NCBI GenBank assembly: GCA_009760855.2
Contig: WPIO01000001.1
Coordinates: 17,367,001-17,431,000 of the forward strand
DNA length: 64,000 bases
Direction of reading: 5' to 3'
Origin: Cristatella mucedo
Lineage: Eukaryota > Bryozoa > Phylactolaemata > Cristatellidae
Every line of letters starts with the position of its first letter. Position 1 is the first letter of the stretch. The notes below the pieces were generated by a model. It was not told the origin of the DNA. It did no database searches and saw nothing but the letters and a program-made list of their open reading frames with translations. Positions 10,571 to 64,000 of the stretch are shown here, one piece after another. The translations under genes were made by a program, and so were the position numbers.

Positions 10571-13500
10571 AGAGAGAGAGAGAGAAAAAGGGATAGAGAG
10601 ATGTTTTTGATTGGCATTCATACAAGTGTCAGCCGCTGGGCATCCACTTGGCATCCCCCCATTGAAAACGACTTGCGAATCTTAGCAGCCTTTGCACGTT
10701 CAAAGCAATTCGAGACGACGCAGGTCGACTTGAAGGGCGGACTTACCATGAACGTGACAGGAAGTGTGTGCCTTACGGACCACTACGACTAATCTTTTCA
10801 GGTATGTCATTATCCCTGCCTAATAAGTGAACTGAAACCTCGAGGGAAGCAATGCTGGTGCATGGCATGTTTAATAACCACTGCATCAATCAATGCTCAG
10901 AATATCAGCTCTCCCTTCTTCGAGAGATCTGCAGCAGGCTTCGGATAGAGAAAAGGTGATCTATCGGCTACCATTCGGCAAGAACGTTGGTGTTTAATGC
11001 TGCAATTCTCACCAACGATAAGAGACAAAAGGCCTCATGGTCAAGTTGCAGCCATATGGGAAGAAATACCGGTTTCTAATATGGCGATCATTTAATAACT
11101 CTTCGTATGATTTGGTGAAAAGAGATACAAGTTTTTTACCGTCGTCTACAGCTTGCTTATCATGTTGTGAGCAAAACAAAAGACAATGCTCCAGTGGCCA
11201 GGTGAGAACAACGTTCATGGTAGAGGCAACATCGAGCCCACAGCTATGATAGAAAACCCACTAATTCTATATCACACTTGCAGGTTCCTAGCAGCTACTG
11301 CATGCTGAAAAAAGCTTGGCAAACCGTACAGCAATGTGCCGCAAACTCACTAATTCAATGCGGCTCAGTGATCAATATGACAAACCACTTAACACTGAAG
11401 ACGTGGCTCGGATGCAATGGCCGGTTCATGCCCAAATGCAAACCAGATTCCGTAGAGTCTGGGTAGTCTCGCGAAGAGTGACCAGAAAGTGCCTTCACCC
11501 ACCTTGCCGGTGATGAAAACGTCCTCGCGCTTGATCGGCGAGCCAGAGGCTGCTAGCTCGACAAACGCCTTGCCAATCAGTGGTTCTGTCTCGTAAATTG
11601 TGGCCGTGTCGATATGCCTGTAGCCGCATTCCAGAGCTGCCTTCGTAGCAGCTTCTATTTCTCCGGGTGGATTCTGTGTGCACAAAAATGTGAACGATAT
11701 GTGTACTGTTAAGAGCAAGTTGTAGCCGCTCCAGAAATAAACTCTCTCCCACATACACGGTACAGGTAACGGTATTAGTTCTAACAGAATCGGTGATGGA
11801 TACTGGTGTAACGACCATGTCGAAGCACACCTAACGAGCCTTACAAGACACAGGGATGCAAGCAGAAACAGAGGCGATAGCAGAGTAGGATAGCAATAAA
11901 AAACTAATTTTTGTTTCCTGTTCTCAATGTATACACATGCCACAGCCGATGAGAAACGCATCTGCAAACGTCGACCTATGGAGCACAACCGTACTACAAG
12001 TTACCAACTGATTTAACAGCAACATTTGCATACCCACGACCTCGATCGTTAAGAGTGAGTACTTTATTTCCCGACCTATCACGGCCGAGTACATTTTTAT
12101 AAGATCAAAGTCATATCCGGCTCGTAATGATTATAACTCAAGAATACCTGCAACTTCTCCAAACTGTCACAACCTAACCAGTTTAGCATGCCAGCATTTC
12201 AATATGTACTTGGGTTTTGCATAACCACAAGCTTGGTCGATGCAATAAAGCTACTTCCCAATAAGTTAATGATACTGGCACTAATTAATATAGTCACCAT
12301 AATAAAGCAAAGAAGCAAAACTCAATTAATTCGGGAATCTCCTTTTCGCGGCAGCAGAGGTACTTCAGTGGACATCACCTGGTTTTCGTGAGGCATTAAA
12401 GACTGTCTGATGCAGGTTCTCTATACAAATGAATCAGTTAATGAATTTTGCACCTGCATATATATATATATGCAGGTGCAAAATTCATTAACTGAGGTTT
12501 GAAGTGCAAGAACCTTACCACAGGCCGAAAAAGCAGGCGACGTAATCTAATCGCGAGGAAATTAAGAGAATGCAACTCTTTCTGATTTCATATATGATAA
12601 TAAAATGCACCTGCCGAAAAAACAGCAAAGTGTGTGACTAGACACCTCTGTAATTAGAAACCTCCCCTTTGAAACTCGGATAGTCAATCCTAATCTACCC
12701 AGGGTGCGTTTTCATGCCGCGGCAGAGCGTATTCACGTTTATGCATTAATAAAAAATTAAGAGCTACGCTTGCTAAGCTCGGGTCTTTGCTATGCAAAAT
12801 AGGAGCAGCGATTGCTAAAAGAGGTAAGTCTTGGACCACTCTTTAAATCGAAATCGGCGGCCGTTTCCAGGGCCATCATGCAGAGACAGCTCAAGTCTTC
12901 CTTTAGGTTGGAAGTGTGGAGTGTACATAAGAAAAATATATTCCGTCGCCGCCTTCTGCTGTAAATTGATGTCGACCATCGGCTGAATCTCTTTGGCGTA
13001 CTAGCGGCTAATGCTAGCCACTTTGCCAGCTTGGGGGGTCTAGATTGCTCGGAACACTAGACTTTCCACTGGTAGGCCCTCTGGACGAGTTTTCCAACGA
13101 GCGATAACCAATCGCGAAAGAACGGATTCGCTTCAATAATAATAATGCACTTGATAAAGCACCCTCAGAGAACTGAATCTCTTTCTAGGCGCTTTGCATT
13201 TGCTGCAAAGGGGAAAAGCTTGCGTGCTTCGGGCAGGAGAAGGCACAAAAGTTAACCCGTCAGTGACCTAAAAGGACTTTCGCTGGCCGAATTTCAGTGG
13301 TGTTACAATAAGCCACGGTGGCTACCTATCTGGGTGCTGCACCACGCCTTTGCGACAGTACGCGACGCTCTGCAAAGGCGCTTGCATTTGTGTGTGCCTA
13401 AGCTTGGAGCTTTCCTCGAGAAGCGACTCGAGATCGGGTTTACTTAGTTGAAGATGCTTTCAAAGAAAGCCTCAAGTATGACACAGCTCTCAGAGGCCGA

Positions 13501-38815: not shown

Positions 38816-39356
38816 GAGCACTATGTTGCACTGCTGGTCGGTATGGCTGCTTTTAAAGCCGTGGCAGCATATTATGTACCATGCCTGGAATTTCTTTCCA
38901 TGGAAAGTAGATATCTAGCACACTTATCTCGATCACTTATCTCGATCATTATTGTATGCACGGTATGCTTTCTTATCGTTGGGGACGAGTGAAGCGATCG
39001 AGTGTCGATTCTCTAGTCCAAGAGAGTCTGCATTTGTTTCGGGGAGTAGGACTTGCCTACGGTAGCCATTCTTGCTAGCTTCTTTCATTCGGCCACTGAA
39101 AGGGTGTGTGTCCGTTCGTGTGCGTGTGTGCTGAGCCTCTGAGCAGAGGAGCAGTGTGCTGGAAGGTATCCGCATGAACCAATCTGCGCTGGCTCCTCTG
39201 CATTTGCCTCGCACTCTGCCGCTCTGCCAATGCTTGGCTGCTGCTGCTGCAGCTGTGCAAGACTTGGGGTCTTTGCCCAGGTCGTTTGCCGACTCGCTCC
39301 CACTTCTATTTCGTGCCTGTCCAGGTGTTTCCTGTTTTCGATCGCTGCTGACGGGC

Positions 39357-42300
39357 ATGGCAGACGCCGAGGTGTTCTTCGTCACCGTTGGCACAGCTGC
39401 CGGGCACGGGAGCAGCTTCAAGCGCACTTTCAAGTCGTGCCAGGATGCCGACCTCGAACCGCAGCTGCTCGACGCCTCGTCTGCCAGCGGTGGCGCTCTC
39501 GCAGCTGCTACTGTGGCAGCAGCGCTGGCCAGCCCAAAAGACAACGCCGTCTACGTGTTCGACGCGTTCGAGGGCGAGGCATTCGAGCGCTTGCAGGCAC
39601 GCCGGTGCCGCATCTATGGCCTGCCGTGCGTGCGGCAGTGCCTCGACCGCTTCGAGAGCCTTCCCAAGGTCGGTCATCCGGTTTACTCACTCGGCATGCG
39701 AGGCGCCGTCGTCTGCTGCACGAGCGTGCCGGCCGAGCTGCGCTTGCGCCTGCACCGCCTCGTGCAGTACATGGGTGGCGAGGTGAGCGGCAACTTCACC
39801 GAGGCCGTCACGCACCTCGTCACGCTCGGCGTCGGCTCGATGAAGTACGAGGTGGCCGCCTCCAGGAAGCTGCCCGTGCTCACGCCCGAGTGGATCCTGT
39901 CGGCATGGCAGCGTTGCTGCCGCAGCGACGATGACGGCGGCAGCGGTGACGGCATGGCAAATGGCGGCGGGGACGGCTTCGACGGGCCGGCGTGTTTGCT
40001 GGAGTCGGCTTACATAGCGCGCTTCGCCTGTCCCGTGTTCAAGGGCCTGACCATCTGCACGTCGGCACTGCCCGACCGCAAAGCGGTGCGTGATCTGATC
40101 GAGCGCAACGGCGGCGTCTTCACGGGCGAGATGAGGGCAGCCGACTGCACGCACCTGGTCGTCAGCGAGCCGACAGGCAGCAAGTACGAGCACGCCAAGC
40201 TGTGGAAAGTCGCCGTCGTGCGGCCGCAGTGGCTGCACGACAGCGTGCGGGCCGGCTATCGCCTCGTCGAGCGCCCGTACGGCTTCGATGGCCAGCGCCA
40301 GGCATCGACGCCGAACGGCGGAGGCGCCGCCGCCGGGGCATCGTCCTCCTACTCTGTCGGTCCGGGGCTTCCGTCCATATTGGACATCAGCGCCATCAAT
40401 GCGTCGACTGCTGCTCCTGCCAACGTGACGGTGCAGAGCTGCGATGGGAGCGGCGCAGGAGGCTGCGGTGGCGGGAGCAGCAGCCTGGCAGTGGCGACGT
40501 CGGCAGCGGCGCCGGCGGGCGACCCTCTCGACGAGATCAAGGTCATCCGGGCCGGGTTCTACTTGGACGGCTGCCGCGTGCATGCGCACGGCTTCGCACC
40601 GCCGAGGCTGGACAAGGTGCAGAAGCTGATCGACTCGTCCGGCGCCGTCCGAGTGGGCGCCGTTGCGCACAAGCCCTCGCACGTGCTCGTGGCCGACGGC
40701 TGCGCGCGCGACGGCTTGGCTGCAGCGCTGCGAGCAGTGCCCACCACCGCCCCGCCACCGCACCTGGTCAGCGTCGCATGGCTGGTCGAGTGCGTCAAGC
40801 GCGAGAAACTGCTCGACAGCGCTCCATTTGCCGTCAGCCTGCCGGCCGTGGGTGCTGCGCTCTCGGCTTCCTCCTCGTCGTCGTCTGCTGCTGCTGCAGC
40901 GGTGTCGACTGCTTCATCGCGGTGCGCCACAACGCCCATCAAGGCGCCGCCACCACCGCCGCCGCCGAGCAAGGGCGAGCCGGTCAGGAAGCCACTGGCT
41001 GTTTGCAACGAGACGAACTCCTCCGCCGGAGTCGCAGCTAACGGCAGGCGGTCGACGTCGGCGGCTGCTGCGAGCAAGAGCAGCGTGCGAGAGAAGGACC
41101 TCGACATCATTAGCCAGTACTCGAGCGGCTGGACCGCTGACGAGAGCGCTTTCGCTAAAGCCGTGCCTCCTCTGCCGTGCTCGGACGCTGCCGGCTCGCC
41201 GGCTGCAGCCACTGCGGCTGGCGAGGCAGCCTCAGAAGCCGTGTGCAGTGCGGCACTTTTAGTCGTCGGCACCTCTGCAGCCGCCACTTCCGCCGCCGCC
41301 GATGTGAGCGATGGTGGCGCCACCGACTCGACGATGTTTGGCTCCGATCGCACGTTTTTGGAAGCTGCCCAGCCGATCGAGCAGCCAGGCGGGCCGGGCG
41401 CCGGCTCGCCGTGCTTGCAGGGCGCGAGCTTCGCGTTTTGCGGCTTTGTCGACGACGATCTGGCTTTGCTGCAGAAGCTGGTGGTCGAGAACGGAGGCGC
41501 GGTCGTCGGTGCCGACTCTGCGTCGGCTGCTGCTGCAGCAGCAGCAGCGGTCGGCTACTTCGTGCTGCCACTTGAAGGATGCAAAGCAAAGATTGCACTT
41601 CCGCCGCCCAAGCACTTCACGGTGGCGACGGTCACGTGGCTGCAGGCGTGCCTCGAGATGGGCCGCTTGCTGGCCGTCGGCGACTGCCCGCTGTACTCGC
41701 CCATCGTCGTGGCCGACGAGGGCCTCAGTCCGCTAGCCGGCTGCGTGGTGAGCGTGAGCGGCTTTGTCGGCTCCGTGAGGGAGGCCATCTATCACGTTGT
41801 GCAGCTCACCGGCGGGCAGCCGCAGGAGACTCTGGCGAAGAAAGCGAACGGCGCCATCAAGGCGACCAGTCAGCTCATAGTGTCGGAGCCTTCGGGCCGC
41901 AAGTACAGCGCCGCCAAAGCCTGGGCCATCCCGACGCTGTCGCTCGCATGGCTGATGGACAGCGTGCGGTTCGGCAGCAGGCAGCCCGAAGCGGACTATG
42001 CGCTGCCCCTGGCAGCAGCGTCCTCCAAGCAGGAGCGCAAACGTGCCCCGGCCGCCGACGTTGCGCTGTGCGCCTCAGCTGCCAGCGTGCCTGCTAGTGA
42101 AGCTGTGGCTGTAGCAGCAGCAGCAGCTGGCGACGGCGCCGGCCCTGCGGCCGACGGCCAAAGCGAAGGCCGCGACCTCGCCGACCGTGTGGAAGGACGC
42201 CTTGATCCGGCCGGCAGCCAAGGACCACACGCTGAGACGTCAGCGGTGGGCGACCCGGCGGCACCGGACGAGGACGGTTTGCATGCAGACCTAGATGCGC

Positions 42301-45300
42301 CGAGCCGCTGTGCCGAGTCGGCCGTAATTGGCGGTGGCAGCAGCAGCAAGGCTGCCGCCGCTTCTGCCGCCCTCGGTCGGCAGAATGGCAGAGATCCGGC
42401 CTCCGCCAGCATGCCGCCGCCGCCGCCCCCTCATGCCACCGCAGCCGCCGGCCGAGCTGCTCTCGAAGCGTCGAGGCTCGGCGGCCGGGCCGGTGACATG
42501 ACGCCGATGACCAAGTCGCGCAAGCTCGGCATCGACACCCCGTCCAAGTGGCTCGACCCCGACGCCAGCTTTCACCCGGGTTTTGACCTTCCGGGCTTCG
42601 TCGTCGACGCCGGCACGCCGGTGGCCGCCGGCCACCTCTCCGACAGCAGGCGCAGATCCAGCCTGCCCATGGAGGAGCTGCTCAGCAAGCATCTGCACCT
42701 GGCTTTGGAGGGTCAGCAGCAGCAGCAGCCATCGGGAGAGTCAGCTACGCCGGCGCCGCAGCCGCCGCCGCCGCGGCGCCCTGCATCCTCGCCGTCCGTG
42801 CCAGCTGGCGCCACTTCGACGCCTGGAGCGCAGCGGCGCAGCCGGCAGCAGCGGCCTGCTGTGGCCGCCGCGGCGGCTGCTTCCGGTGCAGGCGGCCCGC
42901 CGCTGGCCGGAGTCGTGGCCTTCCTCGGACGCCAGCTGCTCGAGGGAGATCGGGCCGCTCTGGGCGCCATTGCGGTCGCGCTGGGTGGCAGGTTGCAAGG
43001 CGTGCCCGACGCGATGTGCACGCACCACGTGTCGAGCGTCGGCCCGACCGCCGACGAGCAGCGGCTGCTGCTGGCTGCCGATCGAGTGCACTTCGTCTCG
43101 CCGCTCTGGCTGAGCGCCTGCCGAGACGCAGCCGCGCGAGTCGATGAGAAGTCCTACCCGTGCAACCCGGAGCAAGCTGCGGCGCCTGCCGTCGCCATCG
43201 CGGTCACCGGCAGTGGCGGCGGCAACGTCGGCCCGGCCTCCGTGCGCCGGTCGGCGCGCCTTCACGCCGACGCTGGTGCTGCAGCCGCCGTCGGCCGAGA
43301 GGAGTGCCTCTCTGCCGCAAGCGGGCAGCAGCAGCAGCGACGGGAACTAGCAGCCCGAGATGGCAGCAGCCTGGGCGCAGCGCGCTCCGCCCTCAGCGAT
43401 CAGCTGCAGAGCTTCATGTCGACGACGAAGAAGCCGGCGAGGTCAGATCGGCGCAGGAGCCGGAAGCGTGCGATTTCGGCAGCGGAAGACGACGGTGGCG
43501 GCGGCGGCGGCAGCAGCAAGCTGTCGACGAGCTGCAATCGAGAAAGCCCCGGCGTCGTCGTCATCGGCAGCAGCGGCGGCGGCGGCAGCAGGGCGAGCGC
43601 TACCGACTCGGCTCCTGTGGACCCGTCGCAGCGGGTCCAGGTAGGTGCCTCAGCGCGAAAGCCAAAGTGTGAGTGTGAGCAGAGGATGAAATCTTAAGGC
43701 ACAAATTCTCAAAACGAATTGTTGAGCACTCATTAGCTGCCAACAGCCTAGTGGTGCGTTTTATCGAATTTTTTCCATGTGGTGTTAAACTTTCTGGCTA
43801 TCTGCACTATTCTTGTAGGGCGATTGGCAGGCTGAAAACGTTTGCTCTCAAACGTTTTCTTTATCAAAATGTGCCTGCTAGCGTGCTGCCATGTTAGAAT
43901 GAGATCTTCAGTAGAAGGAACAACTCCTGAACAGAAGATAATTGACAAGGCAATTGAATAGTGTCAACTTAGTTAGTGTCTAACCCTGGGCATAGCTGGT
44001 ACTGTACTGCAATGTTTTAACTCCCATCTCAGTGGGAGACTCCGGAGTATTGATGTGAACGGAAAAAGATCATCCGAGGATCCACTGAAGTATCCGTTGG
44101 TAAGCCGTGGTTGCACGCTAGGTAAGGCGGTTGCTTTTCACTACCTCGGTCCCGAGCCCTTGGGTTCGAATCCTACGGTAGGTGATTCTTTATCGCCACT
44201 GCAAGGGGGGTGATAGCCGTAAAGGCTCTTTTGTCGCTATACAAAAGAGGCTGTTAAATCAGCCAGTATTTTTTTATCCGGTACCTTAGGGCTCTGTGCT
44301 CGGTCCAGTTCTTTTCACGGCTTATACTCGCCCTCTTGCAGATGTGATTGCCAGGCACAATCTAGGCTTTCACTTTTATGCAGATGACACTCAGTCGTAC
44401 CTTTGCTTTGATCCCTCCCAGCCCTCGAGCACGTCGAATTCTCTCAACTCCCTTGCAGCATGTATTGATGACATCCACACATGGATGGCAGCAAACTTCT
44501 TAAATTGAATGATGATAAAAACCAACTTACTAGTTACGGGCAAGCCATATGTGATTCAGAATTTGGAAAGGCTAATGCTCAAAATCGACTCTGCCAGAAT
44601 ATCTCCTGTTGAATGTGCACGAAATCTAGGTGTCCTGTTTCAAAGTGACCTTTCATTAGACGACAACATCAGCCCCACAGTCAAGTCGGTCCATGCATTT
44701 GTAAGATCCTATGTCGACTTCATCAACTCCCTGCTTGCTGGTTTACAAGCCTGTGCACTCAGGGGCTTAACAGTTGGTGCAAAACTCTGCAGCCAAGCCT
44801 GTCAGTCGTGAGCGGCGCAGTTGCAACACCTCGACACCTCATCTCGACGACTTGCTCTGGCTCCCAGTCAAGCAGAGCATCGACTTTAAGGTTCTGTTGC
44901 ACACTTTTAGTTCCCTTCATTCTTGGGCTTCAGCCGACCTATCAGATCTGCTTCCCTCACAAGGCTAACATCGTACCACCCACTTTTCTCACGCGAGTCG
45001 TTTCCCTACACCTACTACGAACCTCAAATCCTTTGAAGACTGTGCCTTTAGTTCATATGATCCCAAAGCCTGGAACTCACTTGCGACTGGCATTCCGACA
45101 TACCCTGACTTGACGACATTTTAAAAGCTAAAACGCATCTATTTATCACATTATTTAGTGGGTCCGTGTGATTCGTACTTTGTGTGCTTATAAAATAAAT
45201 AAATTAATACTAGCTGATTTAACTGCCTCTCTTTGTATAGCGACAGAAGAGCCTTGACGGCTATCACCACCCGCTTGCAGTAGCGTTAAAGGATCGCCCA

Positions 45301-48109
45301 CTTCAAGATTCGAACCGTCTTACCTAGTGAGCCATTACGGCTTATGCATGTAGACACAGCATGATGCCACTAACCATATTAACGTGGTGATCCTGTGCAT
45401 GTCACCTCTAACCATGATGTTATGCTTGTTGTCATTGAGCATGCCACCATTAACCATTCGATCGTGCTTCAATCTTTTTGACGACACGCCGTCGCCACCG
45501 CCACCACCGAGCTTCTTCGCCCAGGTCACGTGGGACGATGCCATCAGTCGCGAGGAGGCAAGAAAGCTGGCAGAGCACCTGGACCGTGCCTCATGCCCGA
45601 TGGACGACGGTCAGAGCGCCCTGGCCACCATCAAGAAGCTGCTGCACGAACGGCAGCAGCAGGAAGCAGCAGCCGACGCGTCGCACGGCAGCGTCGGTGC
45701 GGACTGCACCGGCGGTGGCAGCGGCACGGCTGCAACGTCGTCCGTTTGCCCCGCGATCCTGCTGTCGGGCCTGTCGGCCGAAGAGCGCGACACCTGCGGC
45801 GCCGTCGTGCTCAGTCTCGGCGGCACTCTGCTCGACTCGCCGGCGTTCGACGACCGCTGCACGCATCTCGTCGTCAGCAAGCCGACCAGGAACGAGAAGT
45901 TTCTGGCGTGTGTCGCCACCGGCAAGTGGATTCTCCATCCGTCCTACTTTGATGCGTGCAGCCAGGCGTCGCGCTTTGTCGACGAGGTGCGCTACGAATG
46001 GGGTGGGCCCGGCCTGGCGGCCCTGTGTCAGCAGCTGGGCGAATCCACCACCAAGCTTGCCGCCGCCGCTCACCGGCGACGCCTGGCTGCGACGACGGCG
46101 GCAGCCGCTGCTGAGAGAGGGTGCGCCGGAGGCAGCCGCTCAGGCTGGCGTGCCTTCGCCAACTGGCGCGCCGTGCTGTGCACCGAGGAGGCGAAAGAGG
46201 GCGGCTTCCGGCGTCTGCTCGAGGCTGGCGGCGCTGTGGTCGTCGCAGCCAGGCCGCCATTTGCCGGGCTTCACGCCGGCGACGTGTCGCATGCGTTCGT
46301 CGACCTGCGCAAGACTGCCTACTCGGTTGCGGACTTTGAGCCGTTGCTGAGAATGTCGGTGCCTTGCCTGAAACCGGATTATCTTGCCAGTTACCTCACC
46401 GACGAGACCCTGCCGAGTATCAGAGACTTTCAAGTCACGGAGCTGCGCTCTGCTGCAGCCGATGTTAGGTGAGCAAACCGAGAGCTCTCTACTCAGGTGA
46501 CCCTTGTCTTTTCCCATTCAATGTGAGAGGGAAAGATAGCAACTCACTACACATAGATAGCAACGATAGCAAAGATAGCAACTCACTCCACAGAGTCAGC
46601 ATCGCTTCGGGTGTACAACGACCTACTTAGGAACGCAGACATGGGTAGAGTGTCTCTGCTTGTTTAGCTCGATCTTTTGATACTATCGATCACCAAGTCC
46701 TTGTTGAGCACATCTCGTCTCGCCTGGAAATCACTGACACTGCACTGCAATGGTTTAGATCCTATCTCAGTGGGAGACTCCAGAGTATTTATGTGAATGG
46801 ACAAAGATCATCCGAGGTACTTCTGAAATATGGGGCACCTCAGGGCTCCGTTCTAGGTCTGGTTCTTTTCACGGTTTATAATATAGGATACCTCACTGCT
46901 CCGTGCTAGCTCCGGTTCTTTTCACGATTTATACTCTCTCTCTTGCCGATGTGATTGCCAAGCACAATCTAGGCTTTCACTTTTATGCAGATGACACTCA
47001 GTTGTACCTTTGCTTTGATCCCTCCCAGCCCTCAAGCACGTCGAATTCTCTCAACTCCCTTGCAGCATGTATTGATGACATCCACACATGGATGGCAGCA
47101 AACTTCTTACATTGAATGATGATAAAACCAACTTACTAGTTATGGGTAAGCCAAGTGTGATTCAGATATGGGAAAGGCTAACGCTTAAAGTCGGCTTTAC
47201 CAGGATATCTCCTGTTGAATCTGCACGAATTATAGGTGTCACAATCCAAAGTGACCTTTTGTTAGACGACCACACCAGCTTCAAAATCAAGTCTGCCTAC
47301 TTTCAGCTACATAACATTTACAATTTGTATAGATAGGGATACCACATCTAAGTTGGTCCATGCATTTATGACATCCCGTCTTGACTTCTGGAACACACTG
47401 CTTGCTGGTCTACCGGCCTGTGCACTCAGGGTTTACAGCTGGTGCAAAACTCTGCAGCTAGAGTTGTTTATCGTGAGCATCGCAGTTGCCACATGACACC
47501 ACTTCTCTCCGACCTGCACTGGCTACCGGTCAAGCAGCGGATTGACTTCAAAGTTTTGTCGCTCACTTTTAGGTCACTTCATTCTTTGGCTCCAGCCTAC
47601 CTATCAGATCTACTGCCCCACCAGGCTAAGCATCGTACCACCCGCTTTTCGGAATCTAATCGTTTACCTATACCTCGTACAAACCTCAAATCCTTAGAGA
47701 CCGTGCCTTTAGTTCGTATGCTTTCAAAGCCTGGAACTCACTCCCGACTTGCTTCACAACATCCCCTGACTTGACCAAATATAAAAAGAATGTAAAACGT
47801 ACCTATTTACCACAGTATTTAGTGGGTCCCTGTGATTCGTCACTCATGTGCTTATGTGTGCTGACACTGTGCATTCTGCCACTAACCACACTTGCATGCT
47901 GACCCTGTGCATGTCACCCCTAATCATGTTATTCTTGTTGTTTATTGAGCATGCTACCACTAGCTATTCGATCGTGTTTCTTTGGCAGAAAATGAAGAGT
48001 GCCTAGAAAGAGTTCTCTGTAGGCGCTTGATCAAGTGTGCTAATACTATTATTATTATTAGCTGACTCACGGAAGGGGAGGGTAAGATAGAGACAGAGAT
48101 GGGGGAGGT

Positions 48110-48197
<88 letters not shown>

Positions 48198-50909
48198 GGG
48201 AGAGAGAAAGAGAGGGAGGAGAGACAGAGGAGACAGACAGACAGTGAGGATTGACGGCACTGTTGCTTACTTTACCAGAGCATGCGATGAAGCGAGTGCT
48301 TTGTAGGTCTCCTAGACTGGCTTGAAGGCTTGCCTGTTCAAACTTGTCTTTTGCATGGCAACAAGCGAGGGTCCATGCAAGCATTCATTGGTGGCCACTC
48401 ACCAAGCGCAGTGGAAAGCATAGTACTAAAGCAAGACAGAAAGTTGAATAATCTCAAAGAAAAGTATCAAATCAAAGGCAGACAAATCGTATGCTTTGTC
48501 AGTACTGCACTTAGTATGCACGTCAGTACTGCACTCTTAGTCCTTTTTTTCTGTACCTAGCGCTCTGACGCCCACTTCAGGGTGCACGGCTAGACTGTTA
48601 CTCGTAAGAAAACGCTGTAGTCAGGTCACTTCTCAAGAAAGTGACACTAGACCATGAAAACTTGAGCAACTACCGCCCAGTCTCCCTTCTACCATTCCTA
48701 TCAAAGACACTGGAACGGGTCGTGGCAGACCAGCTGAACTCGTATATCGAAACTTCAAACCTTGCTTTTAAGTTCCAGTCTGGCTGTAGAGCTAATCACT
48801 CCACAGAGTCAGCATTGTTTAGGGTATACAACGACCTACTTTGGAATGCAGACATGAGTAGAGTGTCTCTGCTTGTTTTGCTCGATCTTTCGGCAGCTTT
48901 TGATTCTATAAATCACAGAGTTCTTCTAGAGCGCCTCTCATCTCGCCTGGGTATCACTGGCACTGCTCTGCAGTGGTTCAAGTCCTATCTCAGCAGGAGA
49001 CTCCAGAGTATCGACATGAATGGACAAAGATCATCCGAGGTACCTATGAAATATGGGGTAGCTCAGGGCTCTGTGCTAGGTCCGGTTCTTTTCACGATTT
49101 ATACTCTCCCTCTTGCTGATGTGATTGCCAAGCACAATCTAGGCTTTCACTTTTATGCAGATGACACTCAGTCGTACCTTTGCTTTGATCCCTCCCAGCC
49201 CTCAAGCACGTCGAATTCTCTCAACTCACTTGCTGCATGTATTGATGACATCCACACATGGATGGCAAGTTTTCTAAAACCAAACGATGATAAAACTAAC
49301 TTATTAGTTATGGGCAAACCCAGTGTGATTCAGAAATTGGAAAGGCTGACGCTCAAAATTGGCTCTGCCAGCATATCTCCTGTTGAATCAGCTTGAAATC
49401 TAGGTGTCATGTTCCAAAGTGACCTCTCGTTAGACGACCGCATCAGCTCCACAGTCAAATCTGCCTACTTTCAGCTACATAATATTGCTAAAATTTGGGC
49501 TTGTTTAGATAAGGATACCACATCTAAGTTGGTCCATGCATTCGTGACATCCCGTCTCGACTTCAGTAACTCACTGCTTGCTGGCCTACCGGCATGTGCA
49601 ATCAGGCGATTACAACTGGTGCAAAACTCTGCAGCTAGGGTGTCTGTCGTGAGCATCGCAGTTGCCACATGACACCACTTCTCTCCGACCTGCACTGGCT
49701 ACCAGTCAAGCAGCGGATCGACTTCAAAGTTTTGTCGCTCACTTTTAGGTCACTTCATTCTTTGGCTCCAGCCTATCTCTCAGATCTGCTCCCCAACCAG
49801 GCCAAGCATCGTACCACCCGCTTTTCGGAATCCAACAGTTTACCAATACCTCGTACAAACCTCATATTCTTTGGAGACCATGTATTCAGCTTGTATGCTC
49901 CCAAAGCTTGGAACTCCCTCCCGACCTGCGTCAGAACATCCCCTGACCTAACCACATTTAAAAAGAACTTAAAAACACCTATTCAGGACAGAATTTAGTG
50001 GGCCCCTGTGGTTCGTCCTTGGTGTGCTTATGCGTGCTGACACTGTGCATGCTGCCACTAACCACATTTGCATGCTGACCCTGTGCATGCCACCCCTAAC
50101 CATGTTATGCTGTTTATCAAGCATGATACTACTCACCATTCAATTGCATTTCCCTTTGCAGCAGATGTAAAGCACCTAGAAAGAGATTGAGTTCTCTGAG
50201 GGTGCTTAATCAAGTGCATTATTATTATTATTATTATTATTAAGAATACAAGGACCGTGATAGCCCAGAAGGTAAGGTGCTCGCTCTTCATGACCGAGGT
50301 CGTGGGTTCGAATCCTGAAGCGTCGACCCTTTATTGCCAACTGCAAGCAGTGGTGATAATGTGAAGGCTCTTCTGCCCCTATATTAATGAGGTTGATAAA
50401 TCAGTTAATAATATTACTATTATTTAAGTTCGCCAGGATGATAAAAGAAGTGTGAGAGGAGAGATGCATGAAACAAGTGACGATTGAAAAGAAGAGATGC
50501 GCTGGCTATGTCGCACGTGTACGATGTAGATGTAGAAGCCTCGTTGTAAGGAGTGAGGCTTGAAGCCCCACAGTGTGCCACCTGCCCACTGTAGAACAAC
50601 TCGTTGCCAACAGGTCTGAGCTACACATACGGTGTATGTGTAGCGAGCTGACTTGTGGTTGCAGATATTCAGCGGATCACTGCAATTATTGCAGTGATCA
50701 GTCACTACTCACTCATTTGCAGCATGTAATTGTCTTTTATTTCTGATCTCGAGTTCTGGCTCGTTAGCCGTGCAACAGCCCAGCAACAGCACATGCGAAT
50801 TTTTTGCCGTCGGCTTTTTTTGTCATTAATTAGCGCATCGTCTGTCGGAGGAAAGCGGAGGCTGCTGACGACTGCCAACGGCAGCCTGCCTGCCAAGAAG
50901 CCTCGATGA
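39357..50909 (+). CDS. TOPBP1: DNA topoisomerase 2-binding protein 1 (TopBP1), three exons
   Basis: Scaffold that binds phosphorylated RAD9 and Treslin and activates ATR. Exons 39357-43640, 45525-46468 and 50834-50909 give 1767 aa (human 1522). Approximate domains: BRCT0 1-100, BRCT1 106-183, BRCT2 220-310, BRCT3 392-488, BRCT4 688-783, BRCT5 790-883, BRCT6 1181-1272, BRCT7 1503-1587, BRCT8 1635-1725. The region before BRCT7, with VTWDDAISREEARKL opening exon 2, matches the end of the ATR-activating region. Exon 3 adds a basic tail (GGKRRLL...AKKPR), as in the human protein. ATG 39357 is chosen because MADAEVFFVTV aligns with the family start; the frame is open back to 39156. Stops at 43697 and 46472 lie just past donors CAG/GTAGGT and TTAG/GTGAGC and are intronic. 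Linkers are rich in Ala, Gly and Ser with GCA/GCC runs, and the exons are far more GC-rich than their surroundings. Confidence 0.95.
43834..43859. repeat. Perfect 11-bp hairpin in TOPBP1 intron 1
   Basis: GAAAACGTTTG, loop CTCT, CAAACGTTTTC. It lies about 190 bp past the exon 1 donor. Function unknown. Confidence 0.7.
43983..45175 (+). mobile_element. L2-like LINE copy split by SINE B
   Basis: RT fragments on both sides of the SINE B at 44097-44274. The FHFYADDTQ motif is near 44370-44400, and the C-terminal region runs to about 45130 with frame changes. It occupies most of TOPBP1 intron 1. Confidence 0.85.
44097..44274 (+). mobile_element. SINE B inserted in an L2 copy
   Basis: A complete copy flanked by TATCCG at 44091-44096 and 44275-44280, splitting the L2 RT codons for the segment before GSVLG. 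In TOPBP1 intron 1. Confidence 0.9.
45204..45345 (-). mobile_element. SINE B with internal deletion
   Basis: (AAAT)n, then ACTAGCTGATTTAACTGCCT and body, with the inter-box hairpin deleted (GATTCGAACCGTCTTACCTA). Confidence 0.8.
45355..45478 (+). mobile_element. L2 3' UTR fragment next to TOPBP1 exon 2
   Basis: Contains the tandem-like GTGCATGTCACC...AACCATG 3' UTR text of the L2 family. It ends about 45 bp before the exon 2 acceptor (45522-45524). The 3' stem-loop is lost. Confidence 0.75.
46575..48056 (+). mobile_element. L2-like LINE copy with internal duplication
   Basis: The second L2 copy in TOPBP1 intron 2. RT fragments at 46903-47336 and a C-terminal region at 47442-47774 are separated by frame changes. 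About 45 bp around the GSVLG/LFT codons is repeated in tandem (46845-46880 and 46888-46931). It ends with the stem-loop and an (ATT)n tail near 48050. Confidence 0.85.
48117..48194 (+). repeat. (GA)n microsatellite
   Basis: An uninterrupted GA tract between the two L2 copies of TOPBP1 intron 2, with degenerate GA-rich flanks to about 48245. Confidence 0.95.
48600..50245 (+). mobile_element. L2-like (CR1 superfamily) LINE, longest RT copy
   Basis: Lies in TOPBP1 intron 2. From 48641 it encodes an RT with NYRPVSLLPFLSKTLE, LLVLLDLSAAFDSINH, AQGSVLGPVLF and the active-site FHFYADDTQ. A TGA near 49394 and a frame change near 49670 break the frame. After the stop comes a 3' UTR with the stem-loop (GCGCCT/AGAAAGAGA/.../TCTCT/GAGGGTGC) and an (ATT)n tail. 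The endonuclease half is missing, so the copy is 5'-truncated and dead. Confidence 0.9.
50246..50412 (+). mobile_element. SINE B in an L2 (ATT)n tail
   Basis: Begins directly after the (ATT)n tail of the L2 copy at 48600-50245. B box GGGTTCGAATCC, body, and tail AATCAGTTAATAATATTACT. Confidence 0.75.
50736..50741 (-). promoter_or_regulatory. Candidate poly(A) signal of the PNGase F-like gene
   Basis: AATAAA on the minus strand, about 525 nt past the stop at 51265. I see no nearer canonical hexamer. If used, this 3' UTR would cross the last TOPBP1 exon in antisense. Confidence 0.4.
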
Positions 50910-51264: not shown

Positions 51265-54200
51265 TCACGAGTAAGCGGTGACGTACGAGTACACGACCAT
51301 TATGCCAGGACTCTGCTTCGGATTCGGACTTGCACCGTTGAAGAAGCCGAAGTACTCAATCTGGCCCGTGAGCAGCGCCGACGAGCGCCGGCCACGCAGA
51401 ACGTCGTCCGTGACGTCGACGACCCAGGGTTTGACCATCTGCCCGTCGCACCAGCCGTCGCGTCCATACAGCCACGTGCCGTGCTCGTTGGGCAGCACGC
51501 CGTCCAGCACGTGGTCGGCGCAACCCAGTGGCGAGCCTGCGGCGGCAGCGGCGTGCTTGCTCACTGGCGTGCACAGCCCACAGCAGCCAGAGGTGCTAGC
51601 AGGCGAGGCTAGGGCGGGCAAGTGTGGCCTGCTTGGCCACGGCAGGCGTGGCACAGCACTCACCGGCGTCCGCGAACGTCACGTTGTGATAATTTCCGTT
51701 CACGACGATGTAATGCGTCGTGACGCAGAATTCGCCACAGCCGTTCTCATCGCTGCCGTGGCCCGTGATGATGGCGGTGATGAGGACCTGGAATAAATCG
51801 CACCACAGACCATTTGAGCACTGCAGCAGCTATTCCATGCTTCCTGTCCGCCACTGCACCGCCGCTGACGCATGCCTCAGCGCTTAGCCAGTCAGTGGGG
51901 CTGCGAGTGTCGAATCAGGAATATACCTTTGTCGTCTCGGCCGGCAGGACGTACTGATAGGGCTTCCAATGTAGGTTGTACGTGCTGTCGAACGTGGCAC
52001 CAGGGTAAAACAGCGAGTCGATCGAAGTTGCAGCAAGGGCTTGCTTGCCTGCCTCTGAAACGGTGAGACCAGTGAGCTGCTGCCTCGCTCTCGTGCAGAG
52101 GCAGCTGCTGCAACACTAGTGCGAGTGCTCGCGTTGGTCATTCTAGTGTGCAACCAGTGGCGGAGCCAGGGGCTTTGCGCATCAACCCCCCAATCCCCCA
52201 TGCAAATGTCGAATAAATCGATTAATAAACGAATAATGCGATTGAGCACTGTAATTTTTCATAACTTGTGGGTCTGGCCACCCTTAATGAAAATCCTTGC
52301 TCCTGTGTGCAATCAGTCCATCGTGCACTGACCTGGCTGTTAGAAACTGCGAGCACCCATGCACATCCTAATTCTGCTTGTGTGCATCGACGGCTAGAGG
52401 GCCTTGGTCGTAGCCTCGGACTGGACAGGCCAGCGACGTGTGCAAAGCAAACGGCCCTGATTGCTTGTAAAATGACTGCATGGGACGTGTTAGGGCCCCT
52501 GCTGCTTGGGTAGACCCCGTGCCATAATCAAACATCAGCTGTAGCTGAGCTGAAGAGAAGCCCGAGCTAGGGTGACCATCGGCAGTGAGTAAAGACGGCA
52601 GAGAGCTATGAGCACAGATGCTCAGGGTTGCAGCTGAAGATAATCTGGTGCTCACCGAGTACGACTCGAGCCAGTGCTCTGCCACTTTGGCATCACCAGA
52701 TGGAGAGAGGGAATGAGAGCAGAAGGGAGGAGGATTTGAGTAGATAGGACCCTGGAATTGAGGAACCGGCAAGAATTCGCGTAGGCATAAAGTGGTGAAG
52801 GAGGGGGTAAGCAGTTAAATCACATCACTCATTTTTTTAAATAGATACTGCTGAATGGCTGACGACTTTTAAAGTTTGAGCACATTATAGCTTTATTGTA
52901 GCACTTAAGTGAGTAAAATGTTGTCATCATTATGAGTCGAACCAACGACCTCTATAACCAGAGGTAAGAGTCATCACAACTCAACTCATTTAGATTGACG
53001 TGCAGATGTAACACCTACGCAAGAAATGTAGATTTCCAGAGTTCTGGACCCACGTAAAAACAAAGGGTCTGTGTCCAACAGTTTGTAGATATAATTTCGG
53101 GAAGTTGAACTGGTCTAAAGCAATATATATGTGATCCCAAGCTAGTTTACATCTTGATGGCTGCAGAAGCCTACTTTAGTGAGAATTGTTATCGGTGCGC
53201 TGTTTCATTGGAAGTAAGTGTAGATTCAACAAGGAGTGTGACAAAGGGTGGGTATTCTAATCTGGAAGACGAATCACGAGCTAGGTGGACAGGAGGGGAG
53301 GTTTTGAGGACAGAATGGCAGCAGTCTGTCCTGGTAAGTCCTGGTGAGTTGACTCATTAAACCGACAATCACAGGCTCCCAATGATGCTGAAGATAGGAA
53401 AATCGGCAGAGCACTCGGCCTACCTGCATTCTCTGCTAGCAAAGAGTAGAAAAAAATATAACTTTAAAAGTGTCGCATACAGTGCTTTCTTTCAGCATTA
53501 CATACAAACATGCCGAGTCTACAGATGAGACTATATGGCTATGGTTTCTGTATAGCCTTAGCACTACCGCCCACGAGGAAAAAATATGTGAGAACATCCT
53601 GTAAGCCTCAGGATTTGAAGCCACTGACAAGAAAGCCTCGAAAGGAACAACCCTCGGTAGGCTTGTAGTTGTGCTGCCGTGTGGACAGGTGCCACCTTAA
53701 GTGGCATCGTGCAAGCATAAAGTGGCCTGGTACCAAGGAAAATTCAGTTACACAAGCAAGGACACAGCTGCTGGCAGAGCTTACCGGCAGGGATAAACCG
53801 TAAGTTGAGAGTTGGGTACCATACTTCCCACGAGGTGGCTTGCATTGTAAACGTGCATGTGCTGGAGTCAAGCAGGTTCATCAGAGATGTGACGTCTGTC
53901 AGCCATCGCCCGATGCGACTGAAAGACGAAAGTGAGCCCGGTTTCTACATACTGAAGTGCTCCCTAAACCCTCCCTCTTTGATATTTATTGAGTCATGCA
54001 TTTTTTCGAAAACTACACCAGTGAAGTGGCAGAAAAGTCACAGGGAAACATCATGCTGCAAATCGTATACCCATGTGACATTCAGAGGGGTCTCAACCGG
54101 AAAACTTCATAACAACGTTTGTCCCAATATCTTGATAATAATAATAATAATAATGCACTTGATAAAGCGCCCTCAGAGAACTTATATCTCTTTCTAGGCG

Positions 54201-56198
54201 CTTTACATTTGCTGCAAAGTGAAATGCAGTTGAATGGTAAGTAAAATCATGCTTGAAAAACAAACAAAATGAATAATATGGTTATGGGTGATATGCACCG
54301 GGTCAGCATGCAAATGTGGTTAGTGGCAGCATGCACAGTGTCAGCACGCATAAGCACATCAAGGGCAAATCACAGGGACCCACTGAATGTTGTCCTAAAT
54401 AGGTGTGTTTTTGAGTTCCTTTTAAATGTTGTCAGGTCAGGGGATGTTCTGACGCAGGTCGGGAGGGAGTTCCAGGCTTTGGGAGCATACTAACTAAATG
54501 CACGGTCTCCAAAGGATTTAAGGTTTGTACGAGGTATTTGTAGACTGTTGGATTCCGAAAAGCGGGTGGTACGATGCTTGGCCTGATGTGGTAGTATATC
54601 TGAGAGATCAGTATATCAAAATCTTGATCGATCGCTCTGTACCGACAGTGTGCCTGTGTCACTAGCTATAGAGCGCTAACTATTCCTTAACAGCCATCAA
54701 GTTTACAACATGCTGTGGGTATAGTCTGCAAGTTAGCGTCCTTTGCTTCCCTGCTTATGCCGGCAAATCGATGTGAATTGCCAAATAGCACAAACTAGCA
54801 TTTGTAGGCACACGCGAGCATGAATTCGTCTCAAAAGGCTAATTTAACGTGACTTAAGCACCTACTTACGGGTAACTAATCTAAGCATCACAGTGTCTGG
54901 CTGTCTGGACATGATAACCACAGATGCTTAGCGAGCTGACCCAGTCAAAAGTCGGTTCAAGCAAATCTCTGCACTCAAGTCTATCACTCCGACACGACTT
55001 AGGGTGCAAGGCTGCAATGCACTGCATCGATCACCTCATTATTTTCTATTCTCATCCATGCCTGCCCTATATGAAAAATTCGACTTGTAGTCTCCCACTA
55101 AAGCTTGGCAGCTACAGCCTTGGAGATGCAGCAGCTACAATAATTTAGCAATAAGCCCTCTTTCACTTGCACCACACAGAACAAATCACCCAGCGTCGAC
55201 CCACAATGCTTGCTAAACATTAAGCTACCAATCTATGACACCTGCAGCTAGAAGCGTAGGAGTGCACCTACTGGGGCCTGGCTCAGTCTACTTGCTGCTC
55301 AGACGGCAGTTTTGCAATTGGATTAGCATAAACACTAAGTTGGGTCTACATGTTTGACCCATATGAGCATTAGCCAACGAGCGTGCGCACTGCCCGTATT
55401 GGCCTTCGTGTGCAAGCAGCTGCACAGAGATTATCCAGTAGATCATTTACCGCCTAAAAGGAGTAATCCAGCGTCCCAGCTCGGCTCCACAAATGGGCGA
55501 TTGCGGCGAGCAGCAGACGAAGAGCTGCACCACGCGGTCCCAGTGGTAGCAGTCTTGATCACGTGTGCCAGGACACGACAGAGAGAGGTCCAGCTCGAGG
55601 CGATTGTAGCTCTTAAGCTCTGGGAAATGTCAAATAAGTGCACACATGTACAATCCTACAGCGATGCCTAGATATAGTAGATATTACCGATGCATATCAT
55701 CATCTCTTGCACTGCCCCTACGCATATGCAGTGTTTGCACACAAACTCACTCATGAAAACACATGCAGACATGCATACACATGCGATATTACTTGACCGT
55801 TAAAAACACATGCAAGCAAAACATGCAAACCAGCCAGCTAAGAACAAGCCGAAAGCAGCAGGGTGCATCTGATCAGCAAGTTCATTGCGTTAAGAAGAGA
55901 AGGAATACGTCAATCCTTAAATCAAGACATCAAGACACAGATATGCAGTGGAAAGCAGTCTACCTGAAACCCGATGAAACGTGGAGCAGTCTCTAGGGTG
56001 TGCAAAATTCGCAGACGGCATGCACCGGTAGGGCATTTTGTAGTAAAGCCTTAACAGTGAACACAAGAGAGGTTTAGGGTTTAAGCACAATGATCGAGAG
56101 GTCAAACTGCTGGAAGGCAGGAAGGGATCAAAGCACAGGCATAGCTGTGCGTCTAGTGCATAAAATGAAGCCTAGATCATGCTTGGCTATTGAATCGG

Positions 56199-56277
<79 letters not shown>

Positions 56278-56713
56278 ATGAATAGTGAAAAGCAGCTGGT
56301 TTGGGCCAGCGGCTAAGGTGCTCGCCCAGACCAAGGTCTCGCTGAGGTCGTGGGCTCGAGCCCCGAGGCTTATGTGAAATGCCTGAATAGAGATTGAGTT
56401 CTCTTGGGGGCTATACAAATGAATTATATTTAATTTTATCCATTTATAGGCACTACTCAAGAAAGACTTCGTGACCACTGGTATCAAATGTCGAGAGATC
56501 CAGTTGAACTAGCAGAGAGAGACTACCCAAGTCAGCATTTATGACGTAGTCATTATACATTCGGACAATGCTGACTGTGAGGAGTACTTAGCTCTAATAT
56601 CTGACAGAAACTTATTTGCTGGGCTTGAATTTAAGATTATGGAGTTTTGCTGGTCGGCCATTACTAATTTTTGCATATACAGGTATAGATAAATATATAT
56701 TTGTATACATAAA

Positions 56714-56753
<40 letters not shown>

Positions 56754-58225
56754 ATTAATATACACACATATATGTGTGTGTGTGTGTGTGTGCCTGTGTG
56801 TGCGCGTGTGTATGCGTGGTGGTAAACTAGGAAGCAGCAGTAATTTTAAAGACAATACTGGAAGCTATTCAGCCTCCAAAACTCGGCGCCAAGATGATGC
56901 TTGATTCACCCAAAGTGAAAGTCGGCGCTACAGTAAAGTAAGGCTAGCTGTCACAGCCTTATTTATATCACGACAGAAAAGCCTTAATGGATATCACTAG
57001 CGCCTGTAATAGGCAATAAAAGACAGCTTGCTACAGGAGTCAAATACACGGCCTGAGATGTGAAGAGCAAGCGCCTTACCCCTAAAAAAAATCTTAGCTG
57101 ATTAAACAGCCTCTTTTAGTATAGCGACAGAAGAGCCTTTACGGCTATCACCACCGCTTGCAGCGGCGATAAAGAATCGCCCACCGCAGGAATCGAACCC
57201 ACGACCTCGGGACCAAGGTCGTGAAAGCAACCGCCTTACCTAGTGTGCCATCACGGCTCTACCCCTGGGACTACCACCCAGGGGTAATGTAAATATAGCT
57301 GATCAAGCAGTCTCATTTGTATATCAGAAGAAGTGCCTTGTCGGCTATCATCCCTTCTTGCAGTTGGCAACAAAGGATCGCCTGCTGCAGGACTCGAACC
57401 CACAATCTGGGTGGTGAAGTTCGAGCCACTTTTTCTTCTAGCAGTAAGTGAATGATACCCAAAAAACCCGTGAAAAACCTGATACAAGGGGCTACATATC
57501 TTTATTCCTCACACTAGAGCTCTTAGATATGGCAATCACTGATCTAGATTGCTCCGACTTCATTGGTGGTTTCAGATTCTGCAATCAGGTCGTTCCTCGG
57601 GAAAAATTGTCTGTTTAGCTGCTTTTACCTTGGTAAATAGGAAAGACTGCCGGTTCACTTTTTTTTTAGGAGCACGAGTCTCTCAGGTTTAGGCGGCAGG
57701 CCTGCTAAGTCTGCGGAACACCAACTTTTTAAATGTGGGAGACTTTCAAAGCTTGATGGACGAAAAGTGGGCATCAGTTTCTTTGCAGCAAACTATCCGC
57801 AAGGCCACCTCATTATACGACGTTGTGCATGCTGCCACTAACCACATTTGCATGCTGACCCTGTGCATGTCATCCCTAACCATGTTATTCATTTTGTTTG
57901 TTTATCAAGCATGATATTACTCGCCATTCAATTGCATTTCCCTTTGCAGCAAATGTAAAGCGCCTAGAGAGAGATTGAGTTCTCTGAGGGCGCTTTATCA
58001 AGTGCATTATTATTATTATTATTATTACGACAGTCAATCAAGCCATCCAGTAATCAACCACTTCGGGTCAATAGAGAATCTCGCAGCAAGTACCCACTTG
58101 AAGGGACAGGAATAGAAACGCTGGCTGACGTTCCATTGGCGCCTGTCATCGCCGAATAGTTGAATACTTGCACGACCGTGGCAGGAGCAGACAGTCGCTG
58201 TGCTAGAGTGAGCTCGTAGTCAAAC
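51265..58225 (-). CDS. PNGase F-like peptide:N-glycosidase, six exons, start exon missing
   Basis: Matches the two-domain bacterial PNGase F fold, which removes N-glycans from asparagine. Exons in coding order: 58098-58225, 55451-55619, 53785-53918, 51927-52054, 51664-51787, 51265-51536. Every junction is GT-AG with matching phase (1, 2, 1, 0, 1). The first listed exon opens with one base of a split codon. The 317 aa is close to mature PNGase F (about 314), so only the start, presumably a secretion signal, is missing. Motifs: CPGTRDQDCYHWDR (catalytic Asp in WDR), GRWITPFRRIGRWLTDVT, TGHGSDENGCGEFC (catalytic Glu in GEFC), GTWLYGRDGWCDG. The paired cysteines suit a secreted protein. The residue aligned with a third active-site Glu of PNGase F appears to be Thr, in QATSW. 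Family identity is strong; activity is inferred. Confidence 0.9.
54135..54600 (-). mobile_element. L2 3' end in a PNGase F-like intron
   Basis: Antisense (AAT)n, stem-loop, 3' UTR and the end of the ORF ([15 protein letters not shown] on the minus strand). It closely matches the copy at 21377-21759. Confidence 0.85.
56201..56276 (+). repeat. (AG)n microsatellite
   Basis: 38 exact AG units just before the SINE A at 56292. Confidence 0.95.
56292..56432 (+). mobile_element. SINE A
   Basis: Starts just after the (GA)n tract at 56201-56276; intact boxes and a tail AATGCCTGAATAGAGATTGA...CTATACAAATGAATTATA. Confidence 0.85.
56713..56796 (+). repeat. (AT)n and (GT)n microsatellite
   Basis: AT units, then a short unique piece, then GT units. 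In a PNGase F-like intron. Confidence 0.9.
56950..57078 (-). mobile_element. SINE B, old copy of a three-copy cluster
   Basis: A strongly diverged antisense body (AGAAAAGCCTTAATGG..., GGCAATAAAAGACAGC), followed by two younger copies in the same orientation. Confidence 0.5.
57092..57258 (-). mobile_element. SINE B, well preserved copy of the cluster
   Basis: TTAGCTGATTAAACAGCCTC, body, GGAATCGAACCCACGACCTC, and CTAGTGTGCCATCACGGCTC. Confidence 0.9.
57293..57432 (-). mobile_element. SINE B, third copy of the cluster
   Basis: ATATAGCTGATCAAGCAGTC, body CTTGCAGTTGGCAACAAAGG, and GGACTCGAACCCACAATC. Confidence 0.7.
57822..58028 (+). mobile_element. L2 3' UTR copy with (ATT)n tail
   Basis: Only the last 207 bp of the element: 3' UTR, complete stem-loop and (ATT)n. 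It ends about 70 bp before the PNGase F-like exon at 58098. Confidence 0.85.
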
Positions 58226-58988: not shown

Positions 58989-59256
58989 AGCGCCAGCGAC
59001 ACTGCCAGCCAGCGTACCACTGTGCCTGCCAGACAAGGAACTGGAAGGACGGATACAGAAGCCAGCCCACTTCTGCCAGGCTGCCACTCGGGTTTATGGC
59101 GAAGAAAAAGTTGTCAGAAGGGCTCGTTTGGTAGGTGACCGCATACTGAACGCCACTGAAAGAAAACGGTACACGTGCCACCGCTGCTACACTCAACTAG
59201 CAAATTCTGAAAATGCACTTGCCAGAGGCTTCCTCTTGCTCCTTAGCACTGATTGA
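58989..59256 (+). CDS. Candidate exon, unrecognised protein
   Basis: A plus-strand frame open from 58930 to the stop at 59256, without an ATG near its start. Its composition looks natural: LPDKELEGRIQKPAHF, then charged residues, then YTCHRCYTQLANSENAL with a CxxC pair. A good acceptor (CCCTTGCAG) precedes 58989. About 290 nt further on, CCAG/GTGAGT at 59548 is a strong donor ending another GC-rich open stretch. It could be a real terminal exon, an old transposon fragment or a chance frame; the minus strand is open here too. I do not recognise it. Confidence 0.25.
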
Positions 59257-61752: not shown

Positions 61753-62111
61753 CTATCTCTTGCTCTCATATTAGCTTTGCTTTAACGGAAGTCTTGCATC
61801 AGGAAAAGCTGACAGGTTGCTCACTTCTACAATATGAAAAGATCTCATCACTAGATTGCCGGTAGCAGCAGCAGAAGCTAGCAACAACGCACGGCAATAC
61901 AGAATGTTGACTACCACGATAAAGTCTTCCTAAGTGGCAACAGGTGACAATCATACCTTTGAAAAATCCAACCAGGATTAGCTATCATGCTGGCAGGTAT
62001 AGACAGTGGCATCGAACACTCGTCGCCGATACAGTTCATGTCGACAATTGGCTCATCGACACTAGCGACGACGATTGCTGTTACTGCTCCTGCGTTCTGA
62101 AGGTTTCTAAC
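61487..62111 (-). CDS. Candidate protease-associated (PA) domain exons, gene incomplete
   Basis: Exon 61957-62111 has an acceptor (TTTTAG) and donor (AAAG/GTATGA). It encodes 51 residues beginning VRNLQNAGAVTAIVV and containing CSMPLSIPASMIANPGW. The NAGA-hydrophobic block followed by IP-x-x-MI is the core of PA domains, found in membrane RING ligases, SPPL2 proteases and some peptidases. A second candidate exon, 61487-61648, would continue in frame as SGPNNVLILEIK, a plausible last strand of the fold, if the acceptor is the ACAGAG/T at 61649. I could not find the start, the upstream half of the domain or a downstream transmembrane or RING part, so the protein cannot be named. The opposite strand also has an open frame here. 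Confidence 0.4.
61671..61748 (+). repeat. C-run plus (CT)n microsatellite
   Basis: Eleven C followed by about 34 CT units, next to the candidate PA-domain exons. Confidence 0.95.
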
Positions 62112-63374: not shown

Positions 63375-64000
63375 GCTCTACTTTAGAGACTACTGCTCAA
63401 CCAGCTGCCCGAATGAATGGTTAGATAATAGTTTATGCATAGGCACAACTAACAGGCAGGAATAAGTCATCCAGCTAATAAAGCACACATTGACAAATTA
63501 AGTGTGCCAAACCCTGCCATATCAGGCGAGGAAGGCAATAGTCACGGAGAGATGAAACGGTCGCATTAGCCAGCAGTATATGCTTGACCACTGGTGCGAT
63601 TAGTTTGAGGCTGACATTATGGATACAATCAGTGTTAATGCTTCACATAGTACTATCAATAAGAAAATATATTGCGAATCACAGCACGCGAAGGGTATCG
63701 AACTGGTGATCACCGCAGCATCTTCATCTCATGGTCTGACTTCGTGTCGTGACTGCTACAGCTACCGAACTTCCGCCTCACCAAAGGCTATACGGAAGGT
63801 GAACGTACGACCGCTGAAGCATAAACTTTATGAAATAATCAAAGCTATTATGCAAATTTACCACTGAAAATTTGGATGTACCACTACCAGGGAAGGATTA
63901 GTGGCAGAAAGCTCTGACCGCAGACAGTTTAGGAGCTAATCACGTGCTCTCATCCAGACCTCGCTCTCAATAATTAAATGACAGCCTCGCTGTGCTCACC

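Follow-up and report, generated by a model that had tools for sequence, protein, structure and literature searches.

Ten-exon Ngly2-like gene in the window

We analysed 64,000 nucleotides of the genome of the bryozoan Cristatella mucedo (assembly GCA_009760855.2, contig WPIO01000001.1; G000:C111:17367001-17431000), referred to below as the window, together with the adjoining 20 kb, which was also examined for missing upstream exons. Towards its end the window carries a minus-strand gene whose product is very probably orthologous to zebrafish Ngly2, an acid peptide:N-glycanase (PNGase) of animals. The first-pass annotation, made from the letters alone, had described six exons (58225-51265) joining in phase to 317 amino acids (aa). 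These were found where it had placed them, with AG/GT borders, compatible phases, one open frame and a TGA end, and the WDR, TGHG...CGEFC and GTWLYGRDGWC motifs it had listed were present in the translation. The exon set was incomplete, however: the six are exons 5-10 of a ten-exon gene, whose product has thioredoxin-like (Tx-like) and PA regions ahead of the PNGase domain (Table 1). Two of the four upstream exons lie wholly inside the window, a third just touches it, ending at position 64000, and the fourth falls beyond, so that the gene overshoots the window end by about 1 kb. The joined frame encodes 699 aa and is interrupted by nine introns, which range from 127 to 2801 bases and are all bordered by GT/AG; no stop codon or frameshift interrupts the 699 codons, and an in-frame stop precedes the first ATG. 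An alternative donor for exon 4, three bases earlier, was also in frame, and the choice was made by fit to the zebrafish length.

The domains and the closest structural relative were identified by Pfam and PDB searches. The 317-aa part matched PF09113 (E 7.8e-27, 94.2 bits; curated cut-off 25) and PF09112 (E 3.6e-16, 59.8 bits; curated cut-off 22.4), so that both of the PNGase F domains assigned in the first pass were borne out, although the best PF09112 stretch spanned only model positions 105-177 of 177, the second part of the model. NCBIfam gave no match for this part. Its best PDB match was zebrafish Si:dkey-256h2.1 (9lwg_A, 687 residues; E 1.4e-94, residues 384-686), and PNGase F chains followed in the same search at E 7.8e-12 to 1.5e-11. 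With the full 699 aa, 9lwg_A was again the best match (E 1.2e-161), residues 77-698 aligning continuously, small gaps aside, to 82-686. The protein thus has the domain order Tx-like, PA, PNGase, the Tx-like part being recognised only by the zebrafish alignment. The short exon 4 query also matched 15 other PDB entries, mostly designed or repeat proteins over about 17 residues, one of which outranked 9lwg; these were taken as chance or repeat matches.

The two proteins were identical at 269 of 600 aligned residues (45%), distributed as 45/128 and 15/25 in the Tx-like parts, 49/130 in the PA domain and 146/291 in the PNGase domain. Domain order, the catalytic Asp and Glu, the absence of any CxxC and the number of sequons (seven predicted N-glycosylation sites each) were the same in both, and 17 of 19 cysteine columns were common; C117 here stands against zebrafish Leu97, and a His here against zebrafish C597. 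Chain numbers in 9lwg equal the published numbers plus 25, an offset that puts both D421 and E555 on the correct residues. The length of 699 aa compares with 687 residues in the PDB chain and, from the offset, presumably about 662 in the native zebrafish protein.

Si:dkey-256h2.1 is ngly2, which encodes the lysosomal acid PNGase of fish (PMC12753239, J Biol Chem, 5 Nov 2025). The gene name links 9lwg to ngly2; the code itself does not occur in the text of that report. As described there, fish Ngly2 has Tx-like, PA and PNGase domains, with no CxxC in the Tx-like part, forms a homodimer by cryo-electron microscopy, shows peak activity at pH 3.5 and is located in lysosomes; D421A or E555A abolishes the activity of the zebrafish enzyme, ngly2 expression is nearly confined to the ovary, and its knock-out strongly depletes free egg glycans. 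Orthologs are listed there for fishes and 16 named non-vertebrate groups, from sponges to molluscs, some bacteria are mentioned, and PNGase F is given as lacking the PA and Tx-like domains. A full-text literature search for Ngly2, with most subscription journals outside its scope, returned nothing beyond PMC12753239. The earlier view that such a gene is out of place in animals is therefore outdated, zebrafish Ngly2 having a structure, assays and a knock-out, and orthologs being reported from sponges to fish. The bryozoan gene adds one more member to an animal family already known, and is not a bacterial oddity.

Other PNGase types were compared with the 699-aa protein. A Pfam scan at E up to 1 gave only PF09113, PF09112 and PA; a transglutaminase core and PAW were not among the matches, which excluded NGLY1, and neither was PF12222, which excluded the PNGase A type. 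NGLY1 catalyses the same reaction as Ngly2 and differs from the protein described here in having PUB, transglutaminase core and PAW domains instead. C. mucedo has its own NGLY1, with all three domains in one 658-aa open frame that needs no intron (L005:148-2121, on G000:C177; PAW match at G000:C177:5000169-5000783). Genome-wide, the only two PF09113 matches were exons 9 and 10 of the Ngly2-like gene, which suggests, on this domain alone, a single Ngly2 copy. A six-frame genome search with PF09112 gave no match, even in the Ngly2-like gene, and this blank does not show absence, because the search reads exon by exon and the domain is split over exons.

Bacterial relatives and the origin of the gene

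Relatives were collected by scanning genome_contigs with two short peptide patterns, and 80 of the 213 loci found were kept. A usable open reading frame (ORF) was obtained from 79 of these and 78 entered the tree, L073 being left out (<170 aa); the resulting 81 rows comprised the window protein, zebrafish Ngly2, PNGase F and 78 bacterial loci, with two animals in all. The window protein and zebrafish Ngly2 formed a pair with support 100/99, separate from all 78 bacterial loci. A 100/100 branch split the tree into 13 and 68 rows. The smaller side held the two animals and 11 loci titled Anaerolineae, Myxococcota/Myxococcales, Deltaproteobacteria or Proteobacteria/Pseudomonadota, one of them labelled Klebsiella pneumoniae; these belong to Chloroflexota, Myxococcota and Pseudomonadota. 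The larger side consisted mostly of Bacteroidota and included PNGase F. Elizabethkingia PNGase F (1pnf, 3pms) resembles the window protein in its PF09112/PF09113 domains, its WDR motif and the equivalents of its catalytic Asp60 and Glu206, with 31% identity (alignment using 248 PNGase F residues), but carries Trp, not His, at the TGHG position and lies across the main branch.

A separate transfer of a bacterial PNGase F gene into this lineage only, followed by intron gain, would agree with the bacterial nature of the non-animal relatives found and with the bacterial name of the family. It is nevertheless extremely improbable, given that the window and zebrafish proteins pair apart from the bacterial loci and have the three-part plan in common over about 620 residues, while the Bacteroidota PNGase F type sits across the 100/100 branch. 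A recent bacterial transfer was likewise disfavoured by the tree. Nor did a viral source emerge: in one scan of viral_contigs the patterns matched 22 times without turning up a relative.

Among the 11 loci beside the animals, the Anaerolineae metagenome-assembled genome (MAG) protein L014 (JAJCYU010000044.1) combines a Tx-like part, a PA domain (E 6.5e-14) and a PNGase part, in the same linear order, within a single unbroken ORF of 911 aa, stop to stop. It aligns to window protein residues 62-686, with 195 of 639 aligned residues identical, and differs in having WDY where the window protein has WDR, about 200 extra C-terminal residues, no introns and a PF09112 match under the cut-off. Its genomic setting looks bacterial, because an rRNA methyltransferase-like gene follows the ORF. 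In a Pfam scan of six of the 11 loci, the five besides L014 gave no PA match at E up to 0.1. A further Ngly2-type gene, L019, comes from a MAG titled Klebsiella pneumoniae; the label is probably wrong, because L019 groups tightly with uncultured proteobacterium MAGs.

Tree tests did not single out any bacterial locus as sister of the animal pair. When the two animals were held together with L014, the log-likelihood exceeded that of the free search by 2.20 (approximately unbiased test, p-AU 0.579; not significant), holding L015 beside them was 5.25 worse (p-AU 0.332), and holding both L014 and L015 was 0.63 worse (p-AU 0.486). The free tree placed L018 beside the animal pair with support 14/3. 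Long-branch flags fell on the window row, L014, L015, L018 and L022 among others, and L015 was also flagged for letter make-up.

Intron repeats and genomic setting

The first pass had stated that two of the five introns of the six-exon part carry resident repeats. A check of its three long introns (the other two measure 139 and 127 bases) upheld this for two (58097-55620 and 55450-53919), which contain stretches that recur elsewhere in the window at 76-95% identity; one of the repeat families is SINE-like (short interspersed element) by eye. The third long intron had no repeat copies within the window. The gene lies on a 24.8 Mb contig of a genome totalling 572,011,866 bases, and bacterial contamination was rejected because of the introns, the resident repeats and this contig, in agreement with the first-pass reading that the PNGase F-like gene, with its introns, belongs to the animal itself.

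Table 1. Exons of the Ngly2-like gene and repeats in its introns (window numbering, extended beyond the window end where stated)
Feature	Position	Strand	Remarks
Exon 1	64988-64328 (L003:988-328; numbering extended beyond window)	-	Start codon, hydrophobic N-terminus, most of Tx-like domain; vs 9lwg_A E 3.5e-22
Exon 2	64190-64000, window-extended (L003:190-1 + window base 64000)	-	Joined frame; DNA from G000:C111:17431001-17441000
Exon 3	61957..62111	-	Remaining PA domain; PA-region piece vs 9lwg_A E 6.5e-16
Exon 4	59018..59155	-	Second Tx-like segment and linker before PNGase domain; vs 9lwg_A E 2.6e-12
Exon 5	58098..58225	-	First of the six originally noted exons; joined frame
Exon 6	55451..55619	-	PNGase N subdomain, W451-D452-R453 (D452 = zebrafish D421, R453 = H422)
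Exon 7	53785..53918	-	W511 (= zebrafish W480)
Exon 8	51927..52054	-	Joined frame
Exon 9	51664..51787	-	TGHG...CGEFC; H578 (= zebrafish H546), E587 (= E555)
Exon 10	51265..51536	-	GTWLYGRDGWC and stop codon
Repeat in intron 6	54135..54608		Five other window places, 81-94% identity over at least 200 bases, plus weaker or shorter ones
Repeat in intron 5	57824..58027		End part of same family as intron 6 repeat (54135..54608)
Second repeat family in intron 5	57085..57263		SINE-like by eye; copies near 31911, 44099, 19838, 17751

The intron repeats also resemble 49775-50239, just downstream of the reverse transcriptase frame of a resident retroelement (48608-49393, plus strand; RVT_1 E 4.5e-26). Elsewhere in the window lie a TopBP1-like gene (39135-46472, plus strand), with a 1520-aa frame that has several BRCT matches (among them PTCB-BRCT E 6.6e-44 and TopBP1_BRCT0 E 6.2e-7) and a second frame of 372 aa with BRCT matches, and a partial aldo/keto reductase gene (11392-12000, minus strand; PF00248 E 3.3e-9). 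Within the TopBP1-like region, positions 40001-44000 have a G+C content of 67-68%. The mitochondrial contig (C688; 21,008 bases, G+C 44% over 20,000 bases) has genes on both strands as the frames were read, and ARAGORN, run with the bacterial code, found no tRNA on it. Its COX1 contains 11 internal TGA codons, read as Trp; under translation table 5, not table 4, it gives motifs conserved in animals, in a form typical of invertebrates, which suggests a bilaterian invertebrate.

Active-site residues and proposed function

The residues at the active site were compared with those of zebrafish Ngly2. D452 (= D421), E587 (= E555), W451 (= W420), W511 (= W480) and H578 (= H546) are kept, and R453 stands in place of His422. 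His422 and H546 are suggested in PMC12753239 as a possible basis of acid activity, though not proven to be defining features of the family. In a census of 82 aligned rows, Glu occupied the 555 position in all 82 and Asp the 421 position in 63, with a gap in the other 19. The 546 position held His in 60 rows and Trp in 22; judged from these rows, His is what the wider family usually has at 546, and it does not set animals apart. The 422 position varied: Tyr 28, Arg 19, Gln 10 and His 1, with various other letters or gaps in the remaining rows. In our PNGase F alignment H422 falls at Arg61 and H546 at the Trp of the TGHG-like stretch, whereas PMC12753239 pairs them otherwise.

Several points weigh against orthology with an acid PNGase. 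The PA domain scored just under its Pfam cut-off (E 2.8e-4, 21.4 bits against 23.9), the ten-exon model is predicted from genomic DNA, and the window row is a flagged long branch in a tree with only two animals. The fourth is R453, which replaces a histidine that, by the published suggestion, may aid acid activity; the pH optimum may therefore differ from that of zebrafish. The same replacement of an active-site neighbour could be read as a sign of a decayed or catalytically dead copy surviving as sequence only. Such a copy is very unlikely here, as the ten exons give 699 codons free of stops and frameshifts, both catalytic residues are kept, and an Arg also follows the Asp in the active bacterial PNGase F.

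It is also unlikely, though less so than a dead copy, that the protein is an active PNGase which descends from Ngly2 but is secreted, with a role outside lysosomes and a neutral or broad pH optimum. R453 is the residue found in PNGase F, whose working range is neutral to alkaline, and of the two suggested histidines only the 546 equivalent is kept, His being the common family state there. That same residue is nonetheless present, as are the PA and Tx-like parts, and both the zebrafish enzyme and the native medaka enzyme cited in PMC12753239 are acid PNGases.

For the acid Ngly2 ortholog, the zebrafish work offers a working scheme, from which activity, pH, lysosomal site, dimer and any egg role would be carried over. 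The hydrophobic N-terminus would bring the protein into the secretory pathway, where it would itself be N-glycosylated, and it would then reach an acidic compartment and dimerise there by way of its thioredoxin-like and PA domains. The PNGase domain, using D452 and E587 as putative catalytic residues, would hydrolyse the bond between Asn and the first N-acetylglucosamine of unfolded or linear glycopeptides, leaving Asp and freeing the glycan.

Tentatively, animal Ngly2 may derive from a bacterial enzyme with all three parts, of the Chloroflexota/Myxococcota kind, which was acquired entire before the lines leading to this bryozoan and to vertebrates separated. The pH range of each member would then depend on which residue follows the catalytic Asp, Arg in the window protein and His in zebrafish, and the bryozoan enzyme would work nearer neutral pH; we infer the direction of transfer, with two animals in the tree. 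The bacterial relatives, one of them with the same domain plan, bear on the origin of the animal enzyme. In C. mucedo an intact-looking invertebrate Ngly2, a family named only in 2025, is found beside NGLY1 in one genome, and with R453 it varies naturally at one of the two positions whose histidines were proposed to account for acid activity in fish, which offers a direct test of that proposal.

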